23,921 nt of DNA from a virus, in the IMG/VR virus record IMGVR_UViG_3300031951_001194, positions 1 to 23,921 of that record; one strand, 5' to 3'. Positions 4,611 through 23,445 of the stretch are shown one piece after another; within the stretch, counting starts at the first letter, position 1; each line of letters starts with the position of its first letter. The notes under the pieces are model-generated. The model was not told the DNA's origin, ran no database searches, and saw only the letters and a program-made list of their open reading frames with translations. The translations under genes were made by a program, and so were the position numbers.

Positions 4611-4881
4611 AAATAAAGCACTTATCGTTAGTTACCTCCGCGCCCTCGGTTACGATGGGAAGCAAAGAAGTTGTGCCGTCACCCTATGGACCCGTGAGAG
4701 CAGGCTTGACCACCTCGCCGATAACCCAAGATCAACGGCTTTCGGAATTGCTCAGCTCCTTAGAGAGCGTAGTAGAAAACCTGAACTACAAATCCTTCAC
4801 GCTATACGATATGTTGAACACCGCTATCGAGGAAATTTCTGCAGTGCTCTCCAACACTCAGACCGAAGAGGGTGGTACTGA
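4462..4881 (+). CDS. Membrane-anchored lytic-transglycosylase-like protein (fully overprinted)
   Basis: The 139-residue product has a basic N-terminus and one membrane segment (about 8-24), a short linker, then a lysozyme/SLT-like domain (about 55-139). Seen motifs are LWTRES with the candidate catalytic Glu79, STAFGIAQ (about 91-98), a YVEHRY helix and the C-terminal DRRGWY. This is the pattern of small phage peptidoglycan-cleaving proteins of the SLT type. GGAG lies about ten bases before the ATG. The whole gene is overprinted: 4462-4610 shares bases with the gene at 4311 and 4607-4881 with the gene at 4607. Its stop overlaps the methylase ATG (TGATG). A role in cell-wall opening is inference. 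Confidence 0.7.
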   Translation: MNRWVRNGLILTAALTSIWILTPIHHLRVEERATKPAPVQTKATMEEKRENKALIVSYLRALGYDGKQRSCAVTLWTRESRLDHLADNPRSTAFGIAQLLRERSRKPELQILHAIRYVEHRYRGNFCSALQHSDRRGWY

Positions 4882-4897
4882 TGCTGACGGGAGTTAG
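4607..4897 (+). CDS. Small helical protein overlapping the SLT-like gene
   Basis: The 96-residue frame begins at a GTG that overlaps the upstream stop (GTGA) and has an excellent GGAGGAG ribosome site four bases before it. The N-terminal third is Ser/Pro-rich (SKEVVPSPYGPVRAG). The rest is a leucine-rich amphipathic helix region (about 45-83, LSELLSSLESVVENLNY) and an acidic tail. Almost all of it lies inside the SLT-like gene in a different frame. The ribosome site, the coupling and the protein-like composition argue that it is translated. Homology is not recognised, so a chance open frame remains possible. Confidence 0.5.
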   Translation: MKIKHLSLVTSAPSVTMGSKEVVPSPYGPVRAGLTTSPITQDQRLSELLSSLESVVENLNYKSFTLYDMLNTAIEEISAVLSNTQTEEGGTDADGS

Positions 4898-5600
4898 TTT
4901 ATTTGCTGGAGTCGGAGGCTTCGACTTGGCTATGCAACGTCAAGGAGTTAAGGTCGTAGCTAGCGTAGAGATAGATAAGAAATGCAACGAGGTGCTGGCA
5001 AAGCACTTCCCTGAAGCAACACAATTTACAGATGTAACTACAGTAAAGGGAGAGGATTTAATAAATGCAGGATTTAATCCAAGCAAAGGAATTATTACAG
5101 GAGGATTTCCCTGCCAAGACCTCTCAGTCGCTGGCAAAAGGGCTGGTCTTGCTGGCGAAAGAAGCGGGTTATTTTGGGAGATTGCAAGAATTGTGGACGA
5201 AACGCAAACCGAATACTTCGTTATCGAAAACGTCCCTGGTCTGCTATCCAGTAACAACGGAGCAGATTTTGGAGTCGTCATCGGGACGATGGCAGACCTC
5301 GGGTATTCTCTTGGATGGAGGGTGCTTGATGCTCAACACTTTGGAGTACCCCAGCGAAGGCGTCGTGTCTTCATCGTTGGGCGACGTTCTACTAGCGAAG
5401 GCGTTGCCGAAATACTCTTTAAGTCAGAAGGCTTGCGAAGGGATCCTTCGGAGAGCAAGCAAGCGCGGCAAGAAACTACCGGAAGCGTTGGAGAAAGCTT
5501 TGGTCAGACAGGTTTCGCAAAGTACAGCCCAGGAGTAACCACATTAACTGCCACCTCATACAAAAGACCTGAAGACAATGTTGTGGTTCACAAAGAGTAG
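4881..5600 (+). CDS. C5-cytosine DNA methyltransferase, N-terminal part
   Basis: This part carries the catalytic half of a Dcm-type enzyme that methylates cytosine C5 using S-adenosylmethionine. Visible motifs are I (FAGVGGF, residues 8-14), IV (GFPCQDLSVAGKR, catalytic Cys78), VI (ENV, 116-118) and VIII (QRRRRVFIVG, 158-167), followed by part of the variable target-recognition region. I chose the ATG at 4881 (TGATG overlap). A GTG at 4872 is in frame. The frame ends at a TAG at 5598 just where the protein should continue, and motifs IX-X are found in the +1 frame (5578-6078). Joining the two gives about 400 residues, a normal length. The break may be a natural frameshift, a mutation or a sequence error. 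Confidence 0.85.
   Translation: MLTGVSLFAGVGGFDLAMQRQGVKVVASVEIDKKCNEVLAKHFPEATQFTDVTTVKGEDLINAGFNPSKGIITGGFPCQDLSVAGKRAGLAGERSGLFWEIARIVDETQTEYFVIENVPGLLSSNNGADFGVVIGTMADLGYSLGWRVLDAQHFGVPQRRRRVFIVGRRSTSEGVAEILFKSEGLRRDPSESKQARQETTGSVGESFGQTGFAKYSPGVTTLTATSYKRPEDNVVVHKE
5065..5538 (+). CDS. Possible overprinted protein inside the methyltransferase gene
   Basis: An alternative frame of 157 codons lies wholly within the methylase gene. Its C-terminal half reads SLGDVLLAKALPKYSLSQ, then KACEGILRRASKRGKKLPE. From memory this closely resembles a phage hypothetical family with LSPKACAGILRRAEKRGKKLP, often found beside or within phage cytosine methylase genes. The codons of methylase motif VIII and the following linker read in +1 give this sequence, so the two families may be related by overprinting. 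The N-terminal part has no recognisable features, and no strong ribosome site was found at the chosen ATG. It could also be a shadow frame. Confidence 0.35.
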   Translation: MQDLIQAKELLQEDFPAKTSQSLAKGLVLLAKEAGYFGRLQELWTKRKPNTSLSKTSLVCYPVTTEQILESSSGRWQTSGILLDGGCLMLNTLEYPSEGVVSSSLGDVLLAKALPKYSLSQKACEGILRRASKRGKKLPEALEKALVRQVSQSTAQE

Positions 5601-6078
5601 ACGGGCGCAGAATGTGGATGACTATGAAACTTGGGTCCAGGGGGGGGTAATGCCTACACTAAACGCTTTTGATAATGGCGACATCCGAACTACTATTTTA
5701 GTAGGTTGCTTTGAACTATGGGATTTCCCAACTGAATCGGTAGCACCAGCAATGACTAGTAGAAGGGCAAGAGATTTGATTAAGTATGAAGAACCGATAG
5801 TCTTTTACGGGAACAGAGTTGCCGATATTAGAATCCAGGATAACAAAGTAAATACTTTACAAGCCCGTATGGGAACAGGTGGAAATAATATGCCGTTAGT
5901 AGCTGAACCAAGCGCTTATGTACGCCGCTTAACGCCGGTAGAGTGTGAGAGATTACAGGGATTTCCTGATGACTGGACAGAAGGACAGTCAGACTCTCAA
6001 CGATACAAGCAGATGGGAAACGCGGTAGCTGTACCAGTAGTTGAGTGGATTATTCAGGGTATATCTGATACACTCTGA
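5578..6078 (+). CDS. C5-cytosine DNA methyltransferase, C-terminal part
   Basis: This 166-residue frame holds the rest of the methyltransferase. It contains the end of the target-recognition region (RRAQNVDDYETWVQGG, MPTLNAFDNGD) and motifs IX and X near the C-terminus (RRLTPVECERLQGFPDDW, YKQMGNAVAVPVVEWI). The frame is open from 5548, and the junction with the N-terminal part fits best around 5592-5600, where skipping one base joins His-Lys to Ser-Arg-Arg. A run of eight G (5640-5647) lies downstream but is in frame on both sides. Independent translation from 5578 is possible, but without the catalytic part it would be inactive alone. Confidence 0.8.
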   Translation: MLWFTKSRRAQNVDDYETWVQGGVMPTLNAFDNGDIRTTILVGCFELWDFPTESVAPAMTSRRARDLIKYEEPIVFYGNRVADIRIQDNKVNTLQARMGTGGNNMPLVAEPSAYVRRLTPVECERLQGFPDDWTEGQSDSQRYKQMGNAVAVPVVEWIIQGISDTL

Positions 6079-6311: not shown

Positions 6312-6691
6312 AACTTTACTGCCTCTTCTATATCTAGGTAACCTACTAACTTGTAAACCTTATTCTTATTCTCAAACTCGGTAGTCACTGGCATCACTTG
6401 TGTATACCATTTAGGTTCAGGCAGATCCATAAGATCAAAAGAATAGATACCAAGCGGAGTGGAGTTAATGTAGTACGGGATAAGATCTCGCTCTGCTGCC
6501 TGAGTGATGAGCTTGCGGTATTTAATCTCTTCGATAAGCAGGGTTTGGTAATGAGTCTGCCTACACTTAAGTTCAATATAGTGAGCAGCCTTCTCACTGG
6601 TGCAGTCATAAGTATCATACATCCCTGGACTCTTAACCAAGTCAGGGTAGAGACTGCCTTTGAGGTAGTTAAATAACTCTTCTTCTTTCAC
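6308..6691 (-). CDS. PD-(D/E)XK-like phage protein, putative nuclease
   Basis: The 127-residue protein has a core of YDTYDCTSEKAAHYIELKCR (about 25-44), with Asp26/Asp29 and Glu40-x-Lys42. This is the spacing of a PD-(D/E)XK nuclease active site. The stretch TLLIEEIKYRKLI and the strand YYINSTPLGIYSFDL follow. I recall similar small proteins in other phages with IELKCR and YINSTP motifs, mostly annotated as hypothetical. The GTG start overlaps the stop of the sigma-like gene (GTGA). A nuclease role is inferred from motif layout alone. Confidence 0.65.
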   Translation of the reverse strand: MKEEELFNYLKGSLYPDLVKSPGMYDTYDCTSEKAAHYIELKCRQTHYQTLLIEEIKYRKLITQAAERDLIPYYINSTPLGIYSFDLMDLPEPKWYTQVMPVTTEFENKNKVYKLVGYLDIEEAVKL

Positions 6692-7320
6692 CGGAAGGGT
6701 GTCTCCCCACCTAATTCTTCTTGCAGTCTACGCAGTGAGTTGGTACACCTACGATCAGCAGTAGATACTGCACACTCTAGGTACTGCGCTATCTGCTGCA
6801 GAGTAGCGTTCTCATAGTGGCGCATACGTAATACAGCCTGATCCTGCTGGTCTAGTTTGAGAAAACACTTCTTAATATCTATCAGGCTGATGAGTAGGTT
6901 GCCACCTTCTGCTGGGCTAGATGATCCGCGTGGCTGACCATCGTTAATCATCTCCTGCACTTGCTCTAATACTGTGCCATCTATGACTGATGCAATAACA
7001 AATGGCAGTAGCTGACCAAGGGTAAAGGTCTGGTAATAAACCTCATCGTTGATCTGATAGCCAGACTTGTTAGCCTTCTCCTTGCGTGCATAGCGTTCAA
7101 CTGCACGCTTCATCTGCCAAGCGATACGACTTTGGTTATGTTCTAATTGCTTAGGATCTTCAACACTCATCTGCTCAGTGATGTAGGCGTTACGCGTAAC
7201 AGCCCACGCTATACACTCCTGAGTAACATCTTCTCGCTCTACCCAATGCTTGTAGCGCCGGTGGACTGCATAAGCAACCGATGGCGCTAACTCATAGACA
7301 ATAGGGTGGAGTTCACTCAT
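6688..7320 (-). CDS. Sigma-factor-like DNA-binding protein
   Basis: The 210-residue protein has a sigma region 2-like N-terminus (EREDVTQECIAWAV, about 28-41) and a sigma region 4-like helix-turn-helix at the C-terminus (about 155-205: LDQQDQAVLRMRHYENATLQQIAQYL). The middle is variable. Such proteins in phages act as sigma-like factors or transcription regulators, here perhaps for the late genes. I chose the ATG at 7320 (overlap with the upstream stop). An upstream TTG is less likely. A specific promoter target cannot be read from the sequence. Confidence 0.7.
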   Translation of the reverse strand: MSELHPIVYELAPSVAYAVHRRYKHWVEREDVTQECIAWAVTRNAYITEQMSVEDPKQLEHNQSRIAWQMKRAVERYARKEKANKSGYQINDEVYYQTFTLGQLLPFVIASVIDGTVLEQVQEMINDGQPRGSSSPAEGGNLLISLIDIKKCFLKLDQQDQAVLRMRHYENATLQQIAQYLECAVSTADRRCTNSLRRLQEELGGETPFR

Positions 7321-7696
7321 CAGGCCACGTCTCGTCAAGGACCATCATTGCAATAGCAGAATAGTTAAGTAGATCCAGGAATGAATCACGCAAGGACTCG
7401 TTGCTAGGCTGCACGCCTGAGTCAAGAAGGTTATTGATGCGAGCTATCTTATCCCACATACGTACACGCAGACCATTAAGTGCTCCACCTGGTGAGTGAG
7501 CAATATTCTTTGGGCCGTAGTCGTGATGCTTACGAATGAGTAGGTTACCTGCGGTATCCATAATGCGCCAGACATCTGTAACAAACTCTGGATCTACCTT
7601 GTCTCGATAGGTCGTATCAAGATAGTCTCGGTTGCCGTATCCACTTCTAGGATCTGGAAGCCCATATGCTGTATAGTCTGTAGAATCATCTGCCAT
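7313..7696 (-). CDS. DUF1599/Nmad1-type nucleotide-modification-associated protein
   Basis: The 127-residue protein shows the motifs RKHHDYGPKNIA (about 56-67), LRVRMWDKIARINNLL (about 76-91) and a C-terminal SFLDLLNYSAIAMMVL. This is the pattern of the DUF1599 family (nucleotide modification associated domain 1) found in many phages. The acidic and histidine residues in the helices are thought to bind metal, as in all-alpha nucleotide pyrophosphohydrolases, but the reaction here is unproven. It lies between the primase and the sigma-like gene, consistent with nucleotide metabolism during replication. Confidence 0.75.
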   Translation of the reverse strand: MADDSTDYTAYGLPDPRSGYGNRDYLDTTYRDKVDPEFVTDVWRIMDTAGNLLIRKHHDYGPKNIAHSPGGALNGLRVRMWDKIARINNLLDSGVQPSNESLRDSFLDLLNYSAIAMMVLDETWPDE

Positions 7697-7702
7697 TCTT
7701 CT

Positions 7703-8356
7703 TTACTCACCCTTCGATTCACCTACTAACAAAGCCCGCGTAGCGTCTGCTCCGTGTGCTAGGTAGTAGTCATTGATGTCCATACCTGGTGGTAGTGTAA
7801 CAATAGTTGAGTTCAATATCTCATTGGCGACACGCTTGGCAAAGTCAGCGCCAGGGTTGGACCCATCTTCCTTAATATCATTATCGCCTACTACAAAGAC
7901 AGTGTCATAGCCAGTAAATAGCTTGGGAAAGTGTGGCTTCCAAGACTGTACTCCTGGGACACCCACTGCTGGGATACCCAGCATCCCGCTAGTAACGACT
8001 GCATCTAGTTCACCCTCGCAGACAACTATGTAAGGGGACATCTTCAACACATCTGCAACATTGTAAAGGTGTGCCTTCTGCCCAGTAGGTGAGCCATACT
8101 TAGGCTTGCCATCATCTAGGCGTCTAAACTTAAAGCCTACGCAACTGCCACCGGCGGTGATGTAAGGGATAGAGATCCATCCTTCATACATCTCGTGACC
8201 ATTCATCGCATCAGTTACTGTGCCTAGTTCAAAGCGAGCAGCTACTGTCTCAGATATCCCACGTTCGTCTAGCGCGACTAGAGTTTCCGGACTTACCTCT
8301 TGGGCGTATCGCTGCGCCGCTTCCAGTAGCAATTTCGACTGCGCGTTTGAGGCCAT
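7703..8356 (-). CDS. DNA primase, Toprim part
   Basis: The 217-residue protein contains a Toprim catalytic fold: the acidic motif VVCEGELDAV (about 112-121) and the metal-binding GDNDIKEDG (about 157-165). It is preceded by the primase-core-like segment with WISIPYI and KFRRLDDGKPKY. It lacks the zinc finger, which is encoded by the partly overlapping gene at 8250-8627 in another frame. GGAG seven bases before the ATG at 8356 supports separate translation. The 107-base overlap of the two open frames also allows a +1 shift that would give a joined primase of normal order. It synthesises RNA primers with the helicase-like ATPase at 9425-10279. Confidence 0.85.
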   Translation of the reverse strand: MASNAQSKLLLEAAQRYAQEVSPETLVALDERGISETVAARFELGTVTDAMNGHEMYEGWISIPYITAGGSCVGFKFRRLDDGKPKYGSPTGQKAHLYNVADVLKMSPYIVVCEGELDAVVTSGMLGIPAVGVPGVQSWKPHFPKLFTGYDTVFVVGDNDIKEDGSNPGADFAKRVANEILNSTIVTLPPGMDINDYYLAHGADATRALLVGESKGE

Positions 8357-8627
8357 CCTTAAACTCCAAGTTCTCTATGATGCAGACAATACTCACTGCA
8401 TTACCACCCTTACCGCAGGTATGGCAGAAATATAAATTGTTATACGTATTTATTACAGCAGACCTACGAGTATCACTATGCAGACAACACTTAACTGATA
8501 CATCCTGTCCTTCTCGTACTTCCCCACCGAAGTAGGAGACGATAGGACCTATGGGGACTGAGTTTGCATCAGTGGAACGGGAACTCCCGCGACCTTTACC
8601 CAGCCTTGACCAATCTTGTGTTGACAT
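8250..8627 (-). CDS. DNA primase, CHC2 zinc-finger part
   Basis: The 125-residue product carries the primase zinc-binding domain: C-x2-H at 47-50 (KCCLH) and C-x2-C at 68-71 (FCHTC), then GKGGNAVSIV and an ENLEFKDGLKRAVEIA helix typical of DnaG-type primases. GGAGG lies six bases before the ATG. The tail after about residue 95 is Arg- and Ser-rich and is read in the same bases as the start of the Toprim gene. The two parts together equal one primase, either as two subunits or as a frameshift product. Confidence 0.85.
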   Translation of the reverse strand: MSTQDWSRLGKGRGSSRSTDANSVPIGPIVSYFGGEVREGQDVSVKCCLHSDTRRSAVINTYNNLYFCHTCGKGGNAVSIVCIIENLEFKDGLKRAVEIATGSGAAIRPRGKSGNSSRARRTWDI

Positions 8628-9424: not shown

Positions 9425-10279
9425 CTATTGTTGGACTATGTAGTCGCCTTGATATCCATTTACTACATCATTTCTTAGCATAACACCCCAGGCATTTTTA
9501 TCAGAGATCTGACAAGCAGCATAGTTTACGAACAGTGTTACGTAATCCTTACCATCTGCAGCGTGTGGCCCAAAGCGGTTCTTGACTGCAGCTACCTTCA
9601 ACTCACCATTAGTTGGGTCATAACCCAGCGTTAGGATCAACGCCGGAAGCTGACTTACCTTGCCGTGAATGGAACGTCTAGCAGGTGGCATAGATGGTGA
9701 TCCATACTCACTCTGCTCAGATACGTGGTGTAGCACAAGTACGCAGGCTTCAGTCTTACGTGCCATATCGTGCAACTCCATCATTATCGCACGTAAGCCA
9801 GCCCACTCATTGTCAGTCTCTGCTGCCACATTCATTAAGTTATCTATGACAATCAACTCTGGAGCGTGACCATAGAGTTCCACATATGCTCTGATCTCTA
9901 ACTCAATATCATCTAGTGATGGTGATGAATCAAAGACCCATTTAATATGTTCTAGTTTGCCAAAGTGTTTGTCGTAGTAGTGCTTGTTGTTAGATAGGTT
10001 TGACTCTACTGATACCTGGGAGTGACCAGATGCAGCAGATGCTGCTCTCATCATCACAGTTGTAGTGTCTGTATCTGCTGAAAAGAAAAGAGTTGGCACG
10101 TTTGCCTTCATCGCATAGATAAGAGCAAACATAGACTTACCAGCGTTAGGAGCTGCAGCCACCATACAGACTTGTCCTCGCCGGAACTTGATCTGCTTGT
10201 ATGCTAGCCCCTGCCACACGTCAGGAAGAGGTGTTGCTTTGGTAAGCACCCCACTCCAAGCGCGTGATAAGTCAAGCAA
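9425..10279 (-). CDS. RecA/DnaB-like replicative ATPase (AAA_25 type)
   Basis: This is a 284-residue P-loop ATPase. The Walker A motif is APNAGKS (about 43-49), a Walker B-like strand LIVIDNL lies near residue 142, and a motor-like LVLHHVSE segment follows. The order fits DnaB-like/RecA-like helicase domains of the AAA_25 group. The N-terminal helicase domain of full DnaB is lacking. It starts at a TTG overlapping the WhiB stop by eight bases, with GGGGAAGG upstream. It probably works with the primase at 7703-8627, either as helicase or as a recombination ATPase. Confidence 0.8.
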   Translation of the reverse strand: MLDLSRAWSGVLTKATPLPDVWQGLAYKQIKFRRGQVCMVAAAPNAGKSMFALIYAMKANVPTLFFSADTDTTTVMMRAASAASGHSQVSVESNLSNNKHYYDKHFGKLEHIKWVFDSSPSLDDIELEIRAYVELYGHAPELIVIDNLMNVAAETDNEWAGLRAIMMELHDMARKTEACVLVLHHVSEQSEYGSPSMPPARRSIHGKVSQLPALILTLGYDPTNGELKVAAVKNRFGPHAADGKDYVTLFVNYAACQISDKNAWGVMLRNDVVNGYQGDYIVQQ

Positions 10280-10538
10280 TGCCTTCCCCCTTTAATGTTA
10301 TACGTCGTTTACGTCTGATTAGCCTGCGTTCACCTTCAGCGACGCCTCCCCAAATGCCGTGACTTTCATTCTGTATTCCCCACTCAGCACACTCTGCTTG
10401 ATGTGGACACCTTCTACAAATTGATTTAGCCATAACCATCTCGGTACTATTAGAACCTCCAGCTACCTTTTCAGGAAACCAGAAGTCGCCACCGACTGTC
10501 GCGCAAGCAGGATTCTCATAGAACCTTGGCTCGCGCAC
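10272..10538 (-). CDS. WhiB-family iron-sulfur transcription regulator
   Basis: The 88-residue protein has the four WhiB cysteines (Cys12, then Cys41-x2-Cys44-x5-Cys50 in ICRRCPHQAEC), the GIWGG turn (61-65) and a basic C-terminus (RRLIRRKRR) for DNA contact. WhiB proteins bind a 4Fe-4S cluster and usually act with the main sigma factor of actinobacteria. The family is essentially limited to actinobacteria and their phages, so this is the best host marker in the window. Phage WhiB genes are known from mycobacteriophages. The start is a GTG. Confidence 0.9.
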   Translation of the reverse strand: MREPRFYENPACATVGGDFWFPEKVAGGSNSTEMVMAKSICRRCPHQAECAEWGIQNESHGIWGGVAEGERRLIRRKRRITLKGEGIA

Positions 10539-10919: not shown

Positions 10920-11876
10920 TTATTTTCCTCCACTTGGTTTGATGTTTAATCTTGCTGTCTCTAATCCAATACTTACTGGGACATAACCAATAAGTTCTTT
11001 TACCTTTTCTTTGTCAACTGTCTCACGACCTTTAACCTTTGTCCAACTGATTTCAATACCACTGGCTGTAACACCAACGGTTCCTTCGAAAGAACTTTTG
11101 ATTGAATCTCTTTGCGTTTCTAGCTCTTTGATCTTTGCATCTAATTGTAGAAAGTGCAAGGCGTTCTTGTCAACTTGCTCGTCCTCAATAACTATTTCAC
11201 TAAGGACGATATGTTCTTTTTTTAAGCCAACGCAACCCATCTCACCTGATGCGTCGTAGTACTGACAGTAATGCTTGCAGAAAGATTCGTCCTTTTCAGG
11301 CTCTGGAGCACTCTCCATCCTCTTGATCTCAGTTAACCACTCCATTGCTTCTAGTGCAACATCTTCATCGTAGGGTTCTGAGTGAACCTTTACATCCTTC
11401 TCAGCACCGTCACGAGCTATAGCAACTAGGTTGACAGTGTTGACTGTGTGACCATTCTGCGTTAATAGATAGCCATAGATCTGTACCTGCCAACGCTGTT
11501 GCTTTGATGGGAAGTAGGAAAGGTTCTTAACCTTGCTTGTCTTCCAGTCAATGACTGCGCCGGTGCTAGGTATAAATAAATCTACGTGTGCTTTCATATC
11601 ACCGTGTGCTACTGCAGCTTCAACTAGGTAATCTTTACCATCTGGATCTATGTGTCCGATTGCCTCTTCGATTGCTGCGTGAATGGCAGTACCCATAATT
11701 GCTGCGAGCTTTGATTGGTTATCATTAGTCTCAGGTTGACTGTTCAATCGGTACCAGACTTTACGACGGCAACCACCAATCTCTGATGGACCTACCTGTG
11801 TCTGAGTACTGCGATCACGAGAGGCATCCTTAGCGTGGAGCACTGTTAATAGCAGTTCCTTGGGATCTGTAATCAT
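10920..11876 (-). CDS. RecB/Cas4-like PD-(D/E)XK exonuclease
   Basis: This 318-residue nuclease has the order seen in Cas4/RecB-like enzymes: an N-terminal Cys36 (GGCRRKVWYRL), GTAIH with His66, Asp99 (AHVDLF), Asp110-x-Lys112 (VIDWK) and the Q-x3-Y motif (132-136). A C-terminal cluster, Cys200, Cys204 and Cys215, follows. With Cys36 the latter could hold an iron-sulfur cluster. It probably processes DNA ends for recombination. The helix from about 230 to 265 is coiled-coil like. The ATG overlaps the upstream stop (ATGA). Confidence 0.85.
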   Translation of the reverse strand: MITDPKELLLTVLHAKDASRDRSTQTQVGPSEIGGCRRKVWYRLNSQPETNDNQSKLAAIMGTAIHAAIEEAIGHIDPDGKDYLVEAAVAHGDMKAHVDLFIPSTGAVIDWKTSKVKNLSYFPSKQQRWQVQIYGYLLTQNGHTVNTVNLVAIARDGAEKDVKVHSEPYDEDVALEAMEWLTEIKRMESAPEPEKDESFCKHYCQYYDASGEMGCVGLKKEHIVLSEIVIEDEQVDKNALHFLQLDAKIKELETQRDSIKSSFEGTVGVTASGIEISWTKVKGRETVDKEKVKELIGYVPVSIGLETARLNIKPSGGK

Positions 11877-12124: not shown

Positions 12125-12679
12125 CTATCCCTTCTGTTGAGTAACTAATTGAATCGGAGGACAGGTATTCACGTCAAGTACCGACGCGATCTTTATTGCC
12201 TTCTCTGCTACTACCTTAGACATAAGCAAGGACTTGTAGGAGTTAGGCTTGAGTGAGTAGAGATAGCCAAGAGCAAATGCTCCACCACTACCTGCTGTAA
12301 AGAGTCCACGTTCGCTGGCGTTAAATGATAGATCTGATCCGATAGAAAACAACATCCCATCGAAGGCAACAAGGTAGGCAAAGTTAGCTTCCTTATCGGA
12401 TGCGTCGTATCCATTATCCTTAAAGGCAGCGTAGATGCTAGGCAGTACCTTCTTGCCCATCCACTCCACCGGATCGTAGTTCTTATACGTTGGTGGTTTC
12501 CAATTAAACGCGAGGATATCTCCAGGTCGTGAGTCGCCCGTGATACCTAGCAGGTAGTCACCCACGCTTACGATCTTGGGTGTCTGAGTAGATATGATGC
12601 GCTGATCGTTATCGGTGATCTGCGAATCAGCAGCCATCACTACGAAGTCAGGTCCTTGGATACCTACCAGAGTTGTCAT
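12125..12679 (-). CDS. Proteasome-beta/HslV-like Ntn hydrolase
   Basis: The 184-residue protein begins MTTLVGI and shows the hallmarks of an N-terminal-nucleophile hydrolase. Removing Met exposes a catalytic Thr. It is followed by Asp18 in MAADSQ, Lys35 in TPKIVSV (near the usual Lys33) and the GSGG turn (130-133, with Ser131 near the usual Ser129). Length and motif order match proteasome beta subunits and HslV. Phages rarely encode this. It may be self-assembling or act alone on a capsid or regulatory protein. No ATPase partner is adjacent. The promoter lies so close that the mRNA appears leaderless. Confidence 0.8.
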   Translation of the reverse strand: MTTLVGIQGPDFVVMAADSQITDNDQRIISTQTPKIVSVGDYLLGITGDSRPGDILAFNWKPPTYKNYDPVEWMGKKVLPSIYAAFKDNGYDASDKEANFAYLVAFDGMLFSIGSDLSFNASERGLFTAGSGGAFALGYLYSLKPNSYKSLLMSKVVAEKAIKIASVLDVNTCPPIQLVTQQKG

Positions 12680-12685
12680 TGGCAG

Positions 12686-12691
12686 ATCATA
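12686..12691 (-). promoter_or_regulatory. -10 box of a leaderless promoter for the protease operon
   Basis: On the minus strand TATGAT ends six bases before the ATG of the gene at 12679, so transcription should start at or next to the A of ATG. No ribosome site is present in the gap. Leaderless mRNAs are common in actinobacteria. The -35 region is poor. Confidence 0.5.
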
Positions 12692-12698
12692 TCACGGC

Positions 12699-12712
12699 GT
12701 GTCGCAAGACAC
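12699..12712. other. Hairpin between divergent promoters
   Basis: GTGTC-GCAA-GACAC is a perfect stem with a GNRA loop, located between the two opposing -10 boxes. It could be an operator or an RNA element. Confidence 0.35.
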
Positions 12713-12732: not shown

Positions 12733-12738
12733 TATAAT
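12733..12738 (+). promoter_or_regulatory. -10 box (TATAAT) for the divergent island
   Basis: A perfect TATAAT precedes the plus-strand genes at 12804 and 13048. Transcription would start near 12745, giving a leader of about 60 bases that contains the CGGCCC/GGGCCG hairpin at 12765-12781. The -35 is not clear. Confidence 0.55.
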
Positions 12739-12803: not shown

Positions 12804-13073
12804 ATGCTGCTCCGTCTACTCTCCCTGCAGAAATTCATAGGCAGAAACAGATCCTACAATGGCCTTCCTAAGCCCTTTGGAGCCGATCTCAGGGGTTTAG
12901 GCCCCGTCCACGCCTGTACCTGTGGCTGTACCGTATTCAACATTATGGCAGCCTTTGAGGATTATGACATAGCTTGGTGGCACCTCGACGGAACCTGTGC
13001 CAACTGCGGGAATCTGCTCACAATTCCCTGCCCTGTGGATAACCCTGATGGACCACAAACTAACGAATATTAA
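12804..13073 (+). CDS. Cys-rich phage protein (zinc-binding)
   Basis: The 89-residue protein has a variable basic N-terminus, then ACTCGCTVFNIMAAF (about 37-51), a WWHLDGTCANCG segment with a second Cys pair (about 59-70) and a Pro-rich tail. This order, C-x-C-x-C then C-x2-C, looks like a zinc-binding phage protein seen in actinobacteriophages with similar HAC-CGC and C-CG motifs. GGAGG is nine bases before the ATG. It is oriented against the surrounding genes and is followed by an overlapping HNH endonuclease gene. Confidence 0.7.
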   Translation: MLLRLLSLQKFIGRNRSYNGLPKPFGADLRGLGPVHACTCGCTVFNIMAAFEDYDIAWWHLDGTCANCGNLLTIPCPVDNPDGPQTNEY

Positions 13074-13398
13074 TGAAGAAGCCAGGACTGGTCTATGCTC
13101 AGTCTGTGGTCCCACCAAGATTAAACTCAGAGATAAGAACCGACCCCTTCGTGGCAGGTATCGGTGCAAGGCAGTCTATAAACGTAACATCATCAAGAGC
13201 CAGTACCCATACGCAGTCCACAAGAAGGAATCCTGTGAGCACTGTGGCTTCATACCAGTCCACGTCAGCCAGCTTGACGTTGACCACATTGACGGGGATA
13301 GATGGAACAACGACCCGACTAATTTACAGACGCTCTGTTCTAACTGTCACCGCTTAAAGACACACTTGCATAACGACAACGACTCTGGTATTTTTTAA
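13048..13398 (+). CDS. HNH homing-type endonuclease
   Basis: This 116-residue protein has an N-terminal CSVCG pair (17-20), a central SCEHCG (63-66) and the HNH motif LDVDHIDGD (His80), Asn92 (DPTNLQTL) and CSNCH (97-101). The Cys pairs hold the structural zinc of the beta-beta-alpha metal fold. An ATG at 12997 gives a longer frame, but homologous sequence begins near MDHKLTN, so I chose 13048. It overlaps the upstream gene by 26 bases and ends before a clear terminator. HNH genes in phages cut DNA in homing or packaging. This one lies in an inverted island between two operons. Confidence 0.8.
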   Translation: MDHKLTNINEEARTGLCSVCGPTKIKLRDKNRPLRGRYRCKAVYKRNIIKSQYPYAVHKKESCEHCGFIPVHVSQLDVDHIDGDRWNNDPTNLQTLCSNCHRLKTHLHNDNDSGIF

Positions 13399-13486: not shown

Positions 13487-13531
13487 AAAAAAAAGAAGCC
13501 CCCCACCCAGGATTTCTCCTGGACAGGGGGC
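13487..13531 (-). terminator. Strong rho-independent terminator of the late operon
   Basis: On the minus strand GCCCCC, TGT, CCAGGA, GAAA loop, TCCTGG, GTG, GGGGGC forms a long GC stem with a tetraloop and is followed by TTC and eight T. It stands 25 bases after the last late gene (13556). Together with the opposite terminator it insulates the two units. Confidence 0.85.
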
Positions 13532-13555
13532 CATTGCCTCGCGCTTATGGGCTAA

Positions 13556-22384: not shown

Positions 22385-23445
22385 TATTTCCTCTCATACC
22401 AGCCATCTCCCCATAGAGTCAGCAGTCTTGCAAAGTATTGCTCGTATTGTGGTGCAATAGCATCTAATGAATACAACGCTACTGCTCTCTTATGTATTGC
22501 TACTGGGTCTAAGTCCTTGACCCATTCTGTTGCTACTGCAAACTCCATTGCATTTCTGCAACGGTATCCAGTAACTCCATTTGGGTTAGTCTCAGTGAAG
22601 GCTCCCCAGTCCGTAGTAATGGTTGGAGTTCCGCAGGCTTGCGCCTCGATCACCACATTACCAAAAGGTTCTATGTAAAGCGTTGGAGCAAATAGGGCAA
22701 TAGCACCGCCCATTAACTTTGCTCGTTCTTCCGGACCAACAGGTCCTACCCATTCACCATATTCAATCTTTGGGTTATTGCCTGGGCCTGCCATAATCAA
22801 CTTAACGCCTAGCTCTTTACAGACGTGTTGTGCTACAACTAAACCTTTACGATCTACCATACGTCCTACGTATAGGTAGTAGTCTTCTTTCTTCTCCTGT
22901 AGCGGGAACATCTCTGGCTCTAAGTAACCAGGAATTACCGCATCATAGAAGTTACCATCTACCAGCGTAGGGTTCTTAAACATTGCATAGATGCTGTGCA
23001 TCCAAGCGTAAGACTCAAAAACCTTGTACTGGCTAAAGACTCCACCATAACCAACACCAAACTCTACGCTCATATAGTCTGGGTAAGCATCTGCAATAGG
23101 CTTCTGTGAATAGCCACCGATAAGACAGATAAAGTCTTTCTTCTGCAGGCGCTTGCCTAGTTGAATAATTGCGTTACTGTTAAAGATCTGCCAATGCGGT
23201 AGTGCATTATCAAAGGCAGCTTCTGTGTAGTGCTTACCATCGAGTGCTTCATCCTGCTGTTCTTTAGTGATGCAGGTAATTAACTCATCGCAAGGCGCTT
23301 CGTTATCTTCTCCAGCATAAAGATAGACCGTATGGCCTAGGTTCTTCATCATTATACAAAAGCGCCTTACCTTTTCAGTATAGGCACAGTTGACGTAATC
23401 TTTAGTTGTTTGTGTATGTGGCAGGCTTATGACGTGGAATCTCAT
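22384..23445 (-). CDS. Glycosyltransferase (GT4-like)
   Basis: The 353-residue protein is a GT-B fold glycosyltransferase. The C-terminal domain shows YLYVGRMVDRKG (about 191-202) and the E-x7-E nucleotide-sugar motif, Glu260 and Glu268 in IEPFGNVVIEAQACGTP, with a GAFTETN strand after it. The N-terminal domain is less conserved. It uses a nucleotide sugar donor; the acceptor is unknown. Its place among tail-fibre genes suggests that it glycosylates the fibres or a host surface polymer, while modification of phage DNA bases is another possibility. The stop overlaps the start of the next gene. Confidence 0.8.
   Translation of the reverse strand: MRFHVISLPHTQTTKDYVNCAYTEKVRRFCIMMKNLGHTVYLYAGEDNEAPCDELITCITKEQQDEALDGKHYTEAAFDNALPHWQIFNSNAIIQLGKRLQKKDFICLIGGYSQKPIADAYPDYMSVEFGVGYGGVFSQYKVFESYAWMHSIYAMFKNPTLVDGNFYDAVIPGYLEPEMFPLQEKKEDYYLYVGRMVDRKGLVVAQHVCKELGVKLIMAGPGNNPKIEYGEWVGPVGPEERAKLMGGAIALFAPTLYIEPFGNVVIEAQACGTPTITTDWGAFTETNPNGVTGYRCRNAMEFAVATEWVKDLDPVAIHKRAVALYSLDAIAPQYEQYFARLLTLWGDGWYERK

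Follow-up and report, generated by a model that had tools for sequence, protein, structure and literature searches.

Proteasome-like proteins in phages

AAH and PPH are group I proteasome-like proteins spread by phages; their function is unknown, no AAA+ partner has been found for them, and no Actinobacteria-specific phage carrying AAH was found (Fuchs et al., 2021, PMC8665760). Phage proteins of this kind are collected in PHROG 1040, which covers Moorella phage MTATph1, Geobacillus virus E3, Actinomycetia phage DSL-LC01 (a predicted actinophage from a lake; PMC10611076) and large Salmonella and E. coli phages. There are 197 phage records, mostly of Salmonella and E. coli phages (the listed examples are about 112-114 kb), that contain a relative of the Moorella phage protein; the annotation reads HslV peptidase or putative proteasome. 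Solved cellular structures of the same general type include HslV (ClpQ) and BPH, the beta-proteobacterial proteasome homologue (PDB 5ovs/5ovu), which assembles as a heptameric double ring and has no known ATPase.

We describe here a protein of this kind encoded in a viral sequence of 23,921 nucleotides (IMG/VR record IMGVR_UViG_3300031951_001194, hereafter the window). Because the kind is already known (PHROG 1040; Fuchs et al., 2021), the protein represents a new clade and its fold is not new. Although the enzyme is of a known kind, its start mode is unusually well recorded by evolution. To our knowledge, the new elements are its abundance in a phage group, its conserved and apparently leaderless position at the head of an operon, and the repeated capture of its start with displaced AUC/AUA starts, for which the literature was not searched specifically.

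Family assignment and predicted fold

The gene and its predicted active-site codons are listed below, with the Thr that follows the initiator Met counted as residue 1.

12128..12679, minus strand: coding sequence of the Ntn hydrolase, 184 aa, stop codon at 12125-12127; assigned by Pfam, PHROG and predicted fold
12674..12676, minus strand: Thr1 codon, predicted nucleophile once Met is removed; invariant in 44 distinct close-set proteins and in the 43-row alignment
12626..12628, minus strand: Asp17 codon, invariant
12575..12577, minus strand: codon of the predicted catalytic Lys, Lys34 by count; invariant in 168 distinct proteins
12536..12538, minus strand: Gly47 codon, predicted oxyanion hole; invariant in 168 distinct proteins
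12281..12292, minus strand: GSGG motif, residues 129-132; conserved in 164/168 to 168/168 proteins per position

The ORF opens with ATG-ACA-ACT, and position 12691, the upper end of the interval first assigned to it, is the first base of an upstream TATGAT box and not part of the coding sequence. In single-sequence searches the ORF matched PF00227 at 30.2 bits (gathering score 22.4, E = 4.4e-7), in an alignment spanning residues 2-44 only, and PHROG 1040, 'peptidase HslV family', with E = 6.9e-22. The whole length was covered by a profile search, in which a profile of 43 relatives matched HslV and BPH chains with E about 1e-13. The window protein resembles HslV in fold, GSGG region and active site, but its scores in the NCBIfam equivalog tests (26.5 bits against a cut-off of 137, and 25 bits against 157.75) lie far below the thresholds, so we reject both HslV and archaeal proteasome beta as its identity.

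An AlphaFold2 model built on an alignment of 43 diverse relatives reached pLDDT 93.8 and pTM 0.88 (with 11 close sequences only, pLDDT was 37.9). Foldseek placed this model closest to BPH among solved structures (5ovs, TM 0.77), followed by HslV and proteasome beta, all with probability 1.00, and its best matches in BFVD were other phage HslV-like proteins. The predicted structure is thus the alpha-beta-beta-alpha Ntn proteasome fold, so that the structural mismatch named as a refutation of the original prediction did not occur. It contains helices H1 and H2 and has no H5 at its C-terminus. This agrees with the compact group I described by Fuchs et al. (2021, PMC8665760) and excludes PPH: PPH is about 140 aa long and misses H2, whereas the window protein has 184 aa and an H2 helix at residues 70-88. 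BPH shares the compact subunit without H5; it is a cellular enzyme, only about 20% identical, and has a long acidic pore loop where the modelled H1-H2 loop of the window protein (residues 59-69, WKPPTYKNYDP) is short and not acidic.

Conservation of the active site points the same way. Lys34, which lies one residue after the canonical Lys33, is invariant across 168 distinct proteins, as are Gly47 and Asp168. Thr1 and Asp17 were partly required by the search expression in that set, and the unbiased evidence for them comes from the close set, whose search patterns left out the active site: the whole catalytic set is kept in 44/44 distinct full-length proteins (57 loci). The original prediction had named a proteasome-beta/HslV-like protease from an MTT start, a Lys near position 33, GSGG and other sequence features. 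All of these are present, and Pfam, PHROG, the predicted fold and the invariant residues agree that the ORF encodes a genuine proteasome/HslV-type Ntn hydrolase. Peptidase activity itself is a prediction from sequence and model, and we consider it very probable.

A viral clade and its probable hosts

A scan of IMG/VR with patterns that left the active site out yielded 57 close loci, and a wider scan gave at least 523 relatives, of which 80 were retained. The gene is under strong purifying selection as judged from sequence comparison (median dN/dS 0.12 in 32 usable pairs). In a tree that carries long-branch warnings on its distant rows, the window protein belongs to a viral clade with good support (100/99) that is separate from DSL-LC01, ct2KA10 and an actinobacterial/Moorella group; Amycolatopsis and Streptomyces proteins, presumed here to be AAH, also fall outside this clade in the same tree. 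Like the PHROG 1040 phage proteins, it belongs to a family found in tailed phages, has no propeptide (those that were read start with MT) and has the same catalytic residues. Unlike them, it forms a distinct clade, is at most about 35-39% identical to any annotated phage protein, and is encoded at what appears to be a leaderless operon head.

We considered a cellular origin and set it aside. A scan of the genomes of 84,980 species with two degenerate patterns gave no cellular relative, and a profile search of 396 Actinomycetota genomes gave no member of the clade; the latter returned only an Amycolatopsis protein already in the profile and weak partial matches, some of them probably proteasome beta.

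WhiB-family genes are a hallmark of actinobacteria and their phages, and the one in this operon indicates an actinobacterial host. The virus family carrying the Ntn gene probably infects lake or freshwater actinobacteria. A large and abundant proteasome-like clade would thereby be placed in phages of such hosts, a gap stated by Fuchs et al. (2021). In DSL-LC01, the annotated phage closest to the window, a WhiB-family gene directly follows the HslV-like gene (L059:15001-15954); in the window a few genes stand between the Ntn gene and WhiB, which is further down the same operon.

Gene neighbourhood and possible function

The Ntn gene opens a series of replication genes in the same orientation, which comprises a PD-(D/E)XK exonuclease, a gp49-like gene, WhiB, a DnaB-like helicase, a split primase and a sigma-like gene. 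The mapped neighbours are as follows.

10920..11876, minus strand: PD-(D/E)XK / Cas4-like exonuclease, downstream of the Ntn gene in the same operon
10272..10538, minus strand: WhiB-family regulator, pointing to an actinobacterial host
9425..10279, minus strand: DnaB-like helicase
7703..8627, minus strand: split primase (CHC2 zinc ribbon ORF 8250-8627 and Toprim ORF 7703-8356)
6688..7338, minus strand: sigma-70 region 4 protein
12804..13073, plus strand: divergent small cysteine-rich ORF, start uncertain; syntenic in relatives
12997..13398, plus strand: HNH endonuclease (PF01844/PF13392)
13497..13532, minus strand: strong predicted intrinsic terminator at the end of the lysis/structural unit, upstream of the early region

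Across the 57 close loci, gene order and orientation do not change within the reach of each contig: lysis genes, a divergent pair of HNH gene and small ORF (in most loci), then the Ntn gene and the replication genes. The proposed position at the head of a replication operon therefore holds, with exceptions in one lineage (L106, L131) and in L134, where the Ntn gene lies behind a helicase gene. The two ORFs of the primase overlap, and their order, CHC2 then Toprim, is unchanged in relatives.

It had also been noted that no ATPase partner is adjacent, and the comparison extends this. An HslU/ClpX-type AAA gene was found neither next to the Ntn gene nor elsewhere in the window nor in related contigs (about 34-43 kb); in 18 related records AAA_2 (the HslU/ClpX type) gave no match, and those of the window clade had no AAA match. 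Weak PF00004 (AAA) matches occurred in more distant records only, namely in L131, at the helicase-like gene adjoining the Ntn gene, and in ct2KA10-type phages. The lack of HslU is a further difference from HslV.

The explanation that we favour, and hold to be likely as a whole, is that of a competent Ntn hydrolase of the compact group I type, encoded at a leaderless operon head and acting early as an ATPase-independent peptidase. The protein has no propeptide, and since its second residue is small, removal of the initiator Met would expose Thr1. An extended -10 promoter would start transcription at the A of the ATG and give a leaderless mRNA heading the early replication operon, probably under the control of a regulator bound at an adjacent GTGTC/GACAC site. 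By analogy with BPH, the closest solved structure, the subunits would most likely form a homo-oligomeric ring; assembly like that of BPH or HslV is somewhat favoured, the window protein being known here from a monomer model. The enzyme would then cleave unfolded or specific proteins early in infection without a dedicated ATPase. Early expression is the firmer part of this scheme and quite probable, and a role in host takeover or protein turnover is offered tentatively. The fixed early position in the operon makes the role testable.

An ATPase might also be supplied by the host. If the peptidase depended on a host unfoldase, of the Clp family or a proteasomal ATPase, for the targeted degradation of host or phage regulators, it would work as HslV and the proteasome do, and the early operon position and the lack of an unfoldase brought by the phage suit such a takeover. 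Against it, we identified no host-interaction feature, and no unfoldase is known for group I homologues such as BPH (PMC8665760); we regard this reading as unlikely. Work inside the host proteasome, raised in the original prediction, is likewise unlikely, because the subunit is of the self-sufficient group I type.

Less probable again is a non-proteolytic use of the fold, either as a ligase or as an anti-defence binding protein. The proteasome-like family does include the ligase connectase and uncharacterised members (PMC8665760), but the full catalytic set of the window clade is invariant, its architecture is compact and HslV/BPH-like, and its model has H1 and H2 and lacks the insertion of connectase.

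A probable leaderless start at the head of the operon

A TANNNT motif about 12 bp upstream of the start is the signature of leaderless genes, which are common in Actinobacteria (PMC3160421), and leaderless promoters have been predicted for mycobacteriophages (PMC4351075). Three elements lie upstream of the Ntn gene.

12686..12694, minus strand: extended -10 box TGA-TATGAT; TANNNT at this spacing in 136/152 distinct contexts
12699..12712, minus strand: inverted repeat GTGTC-TTGC-GACAC, putative operator; the GACACGC part is the most conserved
12733..12738, plus strand: TATAAT facing the other way, putative divergent promoter read from the sequence; the ATATTGTA stretch is conserved in relatives

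In the window, exactly six bases lie between TATGAT (12691-12686) and the ATG; the first T of the box is at -12, and a TGA precedes the box; with no Shine-Dalgarno sequence, this is the arrangement of a leaderless gene. A TANNNT motif lies 6-9 nt before the Ntn start in 71/71 distinct upstream sequences of the first set, as against 1/373 control starts, taken from ten further genes in these genomes; for seven of the ten, nearly every copy has Shine-Dalgarno-like words. In 19/71 Ntn contexts there are purine-rich words that overlap the box or lie upstream of it, and a conserved Shine-Dalgarno sequence is absent. In the wider set the motif is kept in 136 of 152 distinct contexts, at 6 nt in 81, 7 nt in 31, 8 nt in 21 and 9 nt in 3. 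These 136 contexts start with ATG (124) or GTG (12), and 81 of them have the TGN extension of the -10 box.

GACACGC is present in 131/136 leaderless contexts and the left arm GTGTC in 115/136; GACACGC is usually one half of a GTGTC...GACAC inverted repeat. Since its distance from the -10 box varies from 7 to 15 bases, the site resembles an operator more than a -35 element.

The original prediction had proposed a leaderless transcript from the box alone, and every comparative test (the 136/152 contexts, the 1/373 controls and the insertion cases described below) favours a start at the ATG. We are confident that the mRNA is leaderless, with a predicted 5' end at the A of the ATG. Leaders of 1-3 nt may occur in some relatives such as L107, because their box lies 8 nt from the start and lacks TGN. 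A leadered transcript from an upstream promoter, with TATGAT standing before the ATG by coincidence, could draw on a second box on the same strand (TATTAT, 12739-12734, about 48-50 nt upstream). We find it very improbable in view of the spacing kept in 136/152 contexts, the absence of a conserved Shine-Dalgarno sequence, the equal spacing of 12/12 inserted ORFs and the Shine-Dalgarno-like sequence that most displaced copies have. The Cluster O mycobacteriophage leaderless promoters concern different genes, and the passage on them (PMC4351075) does not describe repeated ORF capture at a leaderless start.

The proposal that the enzyme cleaves prohead proteins is weakened to the point of being the least probable reading: although no Peptidase_S78 was found in 11 related records and one 41.6-kb relative has head genes with no other protease among the proteins scanned, many phages need no such protease, and in the close set the gene heads the early replication module under its own promoter, far from the major head protein, terminase and tail genes, with a strong terminator separating it from the structural/lysis module.

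ORFs inserted at the Ntn start

Among the 152 contexts, 16 have no box before the Ntn gene: 12 are insertion cases, not all of them independent, and four are other arrangements (L106, L131, L134 and the DSL-LC01-like phage L141). In 12/12 insertion cases the leaderless position is occupied by the start of an additional ORF, whose ATG has a -10 box 6-7 nt upstream and whose end lies at the Ntn gene or just within it; the Ntn gene is displaced and has no -10 box. Judged by their motifs, the HNH nucleases among the inserted ORFs belong to at least two kinds, and the other inserts are a 51-aa ORF and a 19-aa ORF, a diversity that implies that capture happened several times.

None of the 12 displaced copies starts with ATG; the start codons are ATC (8), ATA (1), TTG (2) and GTG (1), directly followed by the Thr codon, and most copies have a GGAG/GAGG-like sequence 6-8 nt upstream. 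The ATC/ATA starts are at L040:8001, L051:7028, L228:2998, L232:2280, L240:2998, L244:2998, L247:2998, L253:2998 and L265:2998. An earlier start is excluded in L051, where an in-frame stop lies two codons upstream. Compared with their nearest leaderless relatives, displaced copies have dN/dS of 0.02-0.16 and, being under purifying selection, are presumably translated. ATC/ATA starts are found in 9/12 displaced and 0/136 leaderless contexts (Fisher p 3e-12, ignoring relatedness), a contrast that supports both the leaderless normal form and a need for Thr at position 1.

Two other explanations of the insertions were rejected. The first, an intron, gave no Rfam match in L040, and the insert is taken up by its ORF, which is in another frame; the second, a frameshift fusion of the inserted ORF to Ntn, conflicts with the stop in the Ntn frame of L051 and would leave Thr1 buried.

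On balance, we think it probable that the leaderless start is a slot that foreign ORFs capture repeatedly, after which the displaced Ntn gene would naturally use near-cognate AUC/AUA, mostly with a newly acquired Shine-Dalgarno-like sequence, perhaps restoring the low dose of the leaderless original and still keeping Thr at position 1. One gene thus offers an evolutionary test of leaderless initiation, its leaderless form using AUG/GUG only and its displaced form mostly AUC/AUA, and the contrast is relevant to the influence of the initiation mode on the choice of start codon.

Other features of the window

A C-5 cytosine methyltransferase (4872-6078, plus strand) is split into two ORFs in different frames, with the N part at 4872-5600 and the C part at 5578-6078. 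Its parts are also found in separate ORFs, of different lengths, in L003, L004, L026, L043, L048 and L050; because this recurs in relatives, the split is probably no error.

Positions 680-1400, about 700 bases without ORFs of at least 60 aa, contain G-rich CCCTGCCCTGCGCGG-like repeats and sit between a region open at the window edge and a block of plus-strand genes.

A glycosyltransferase gene starting at 23445 on the minus strand has TATAAT eight bases before its ATG, and its relatives in L004 and L018 have TATACT 7 and 6 bases before the start. Judged from these motifs, it is a possible second leaderless gene.
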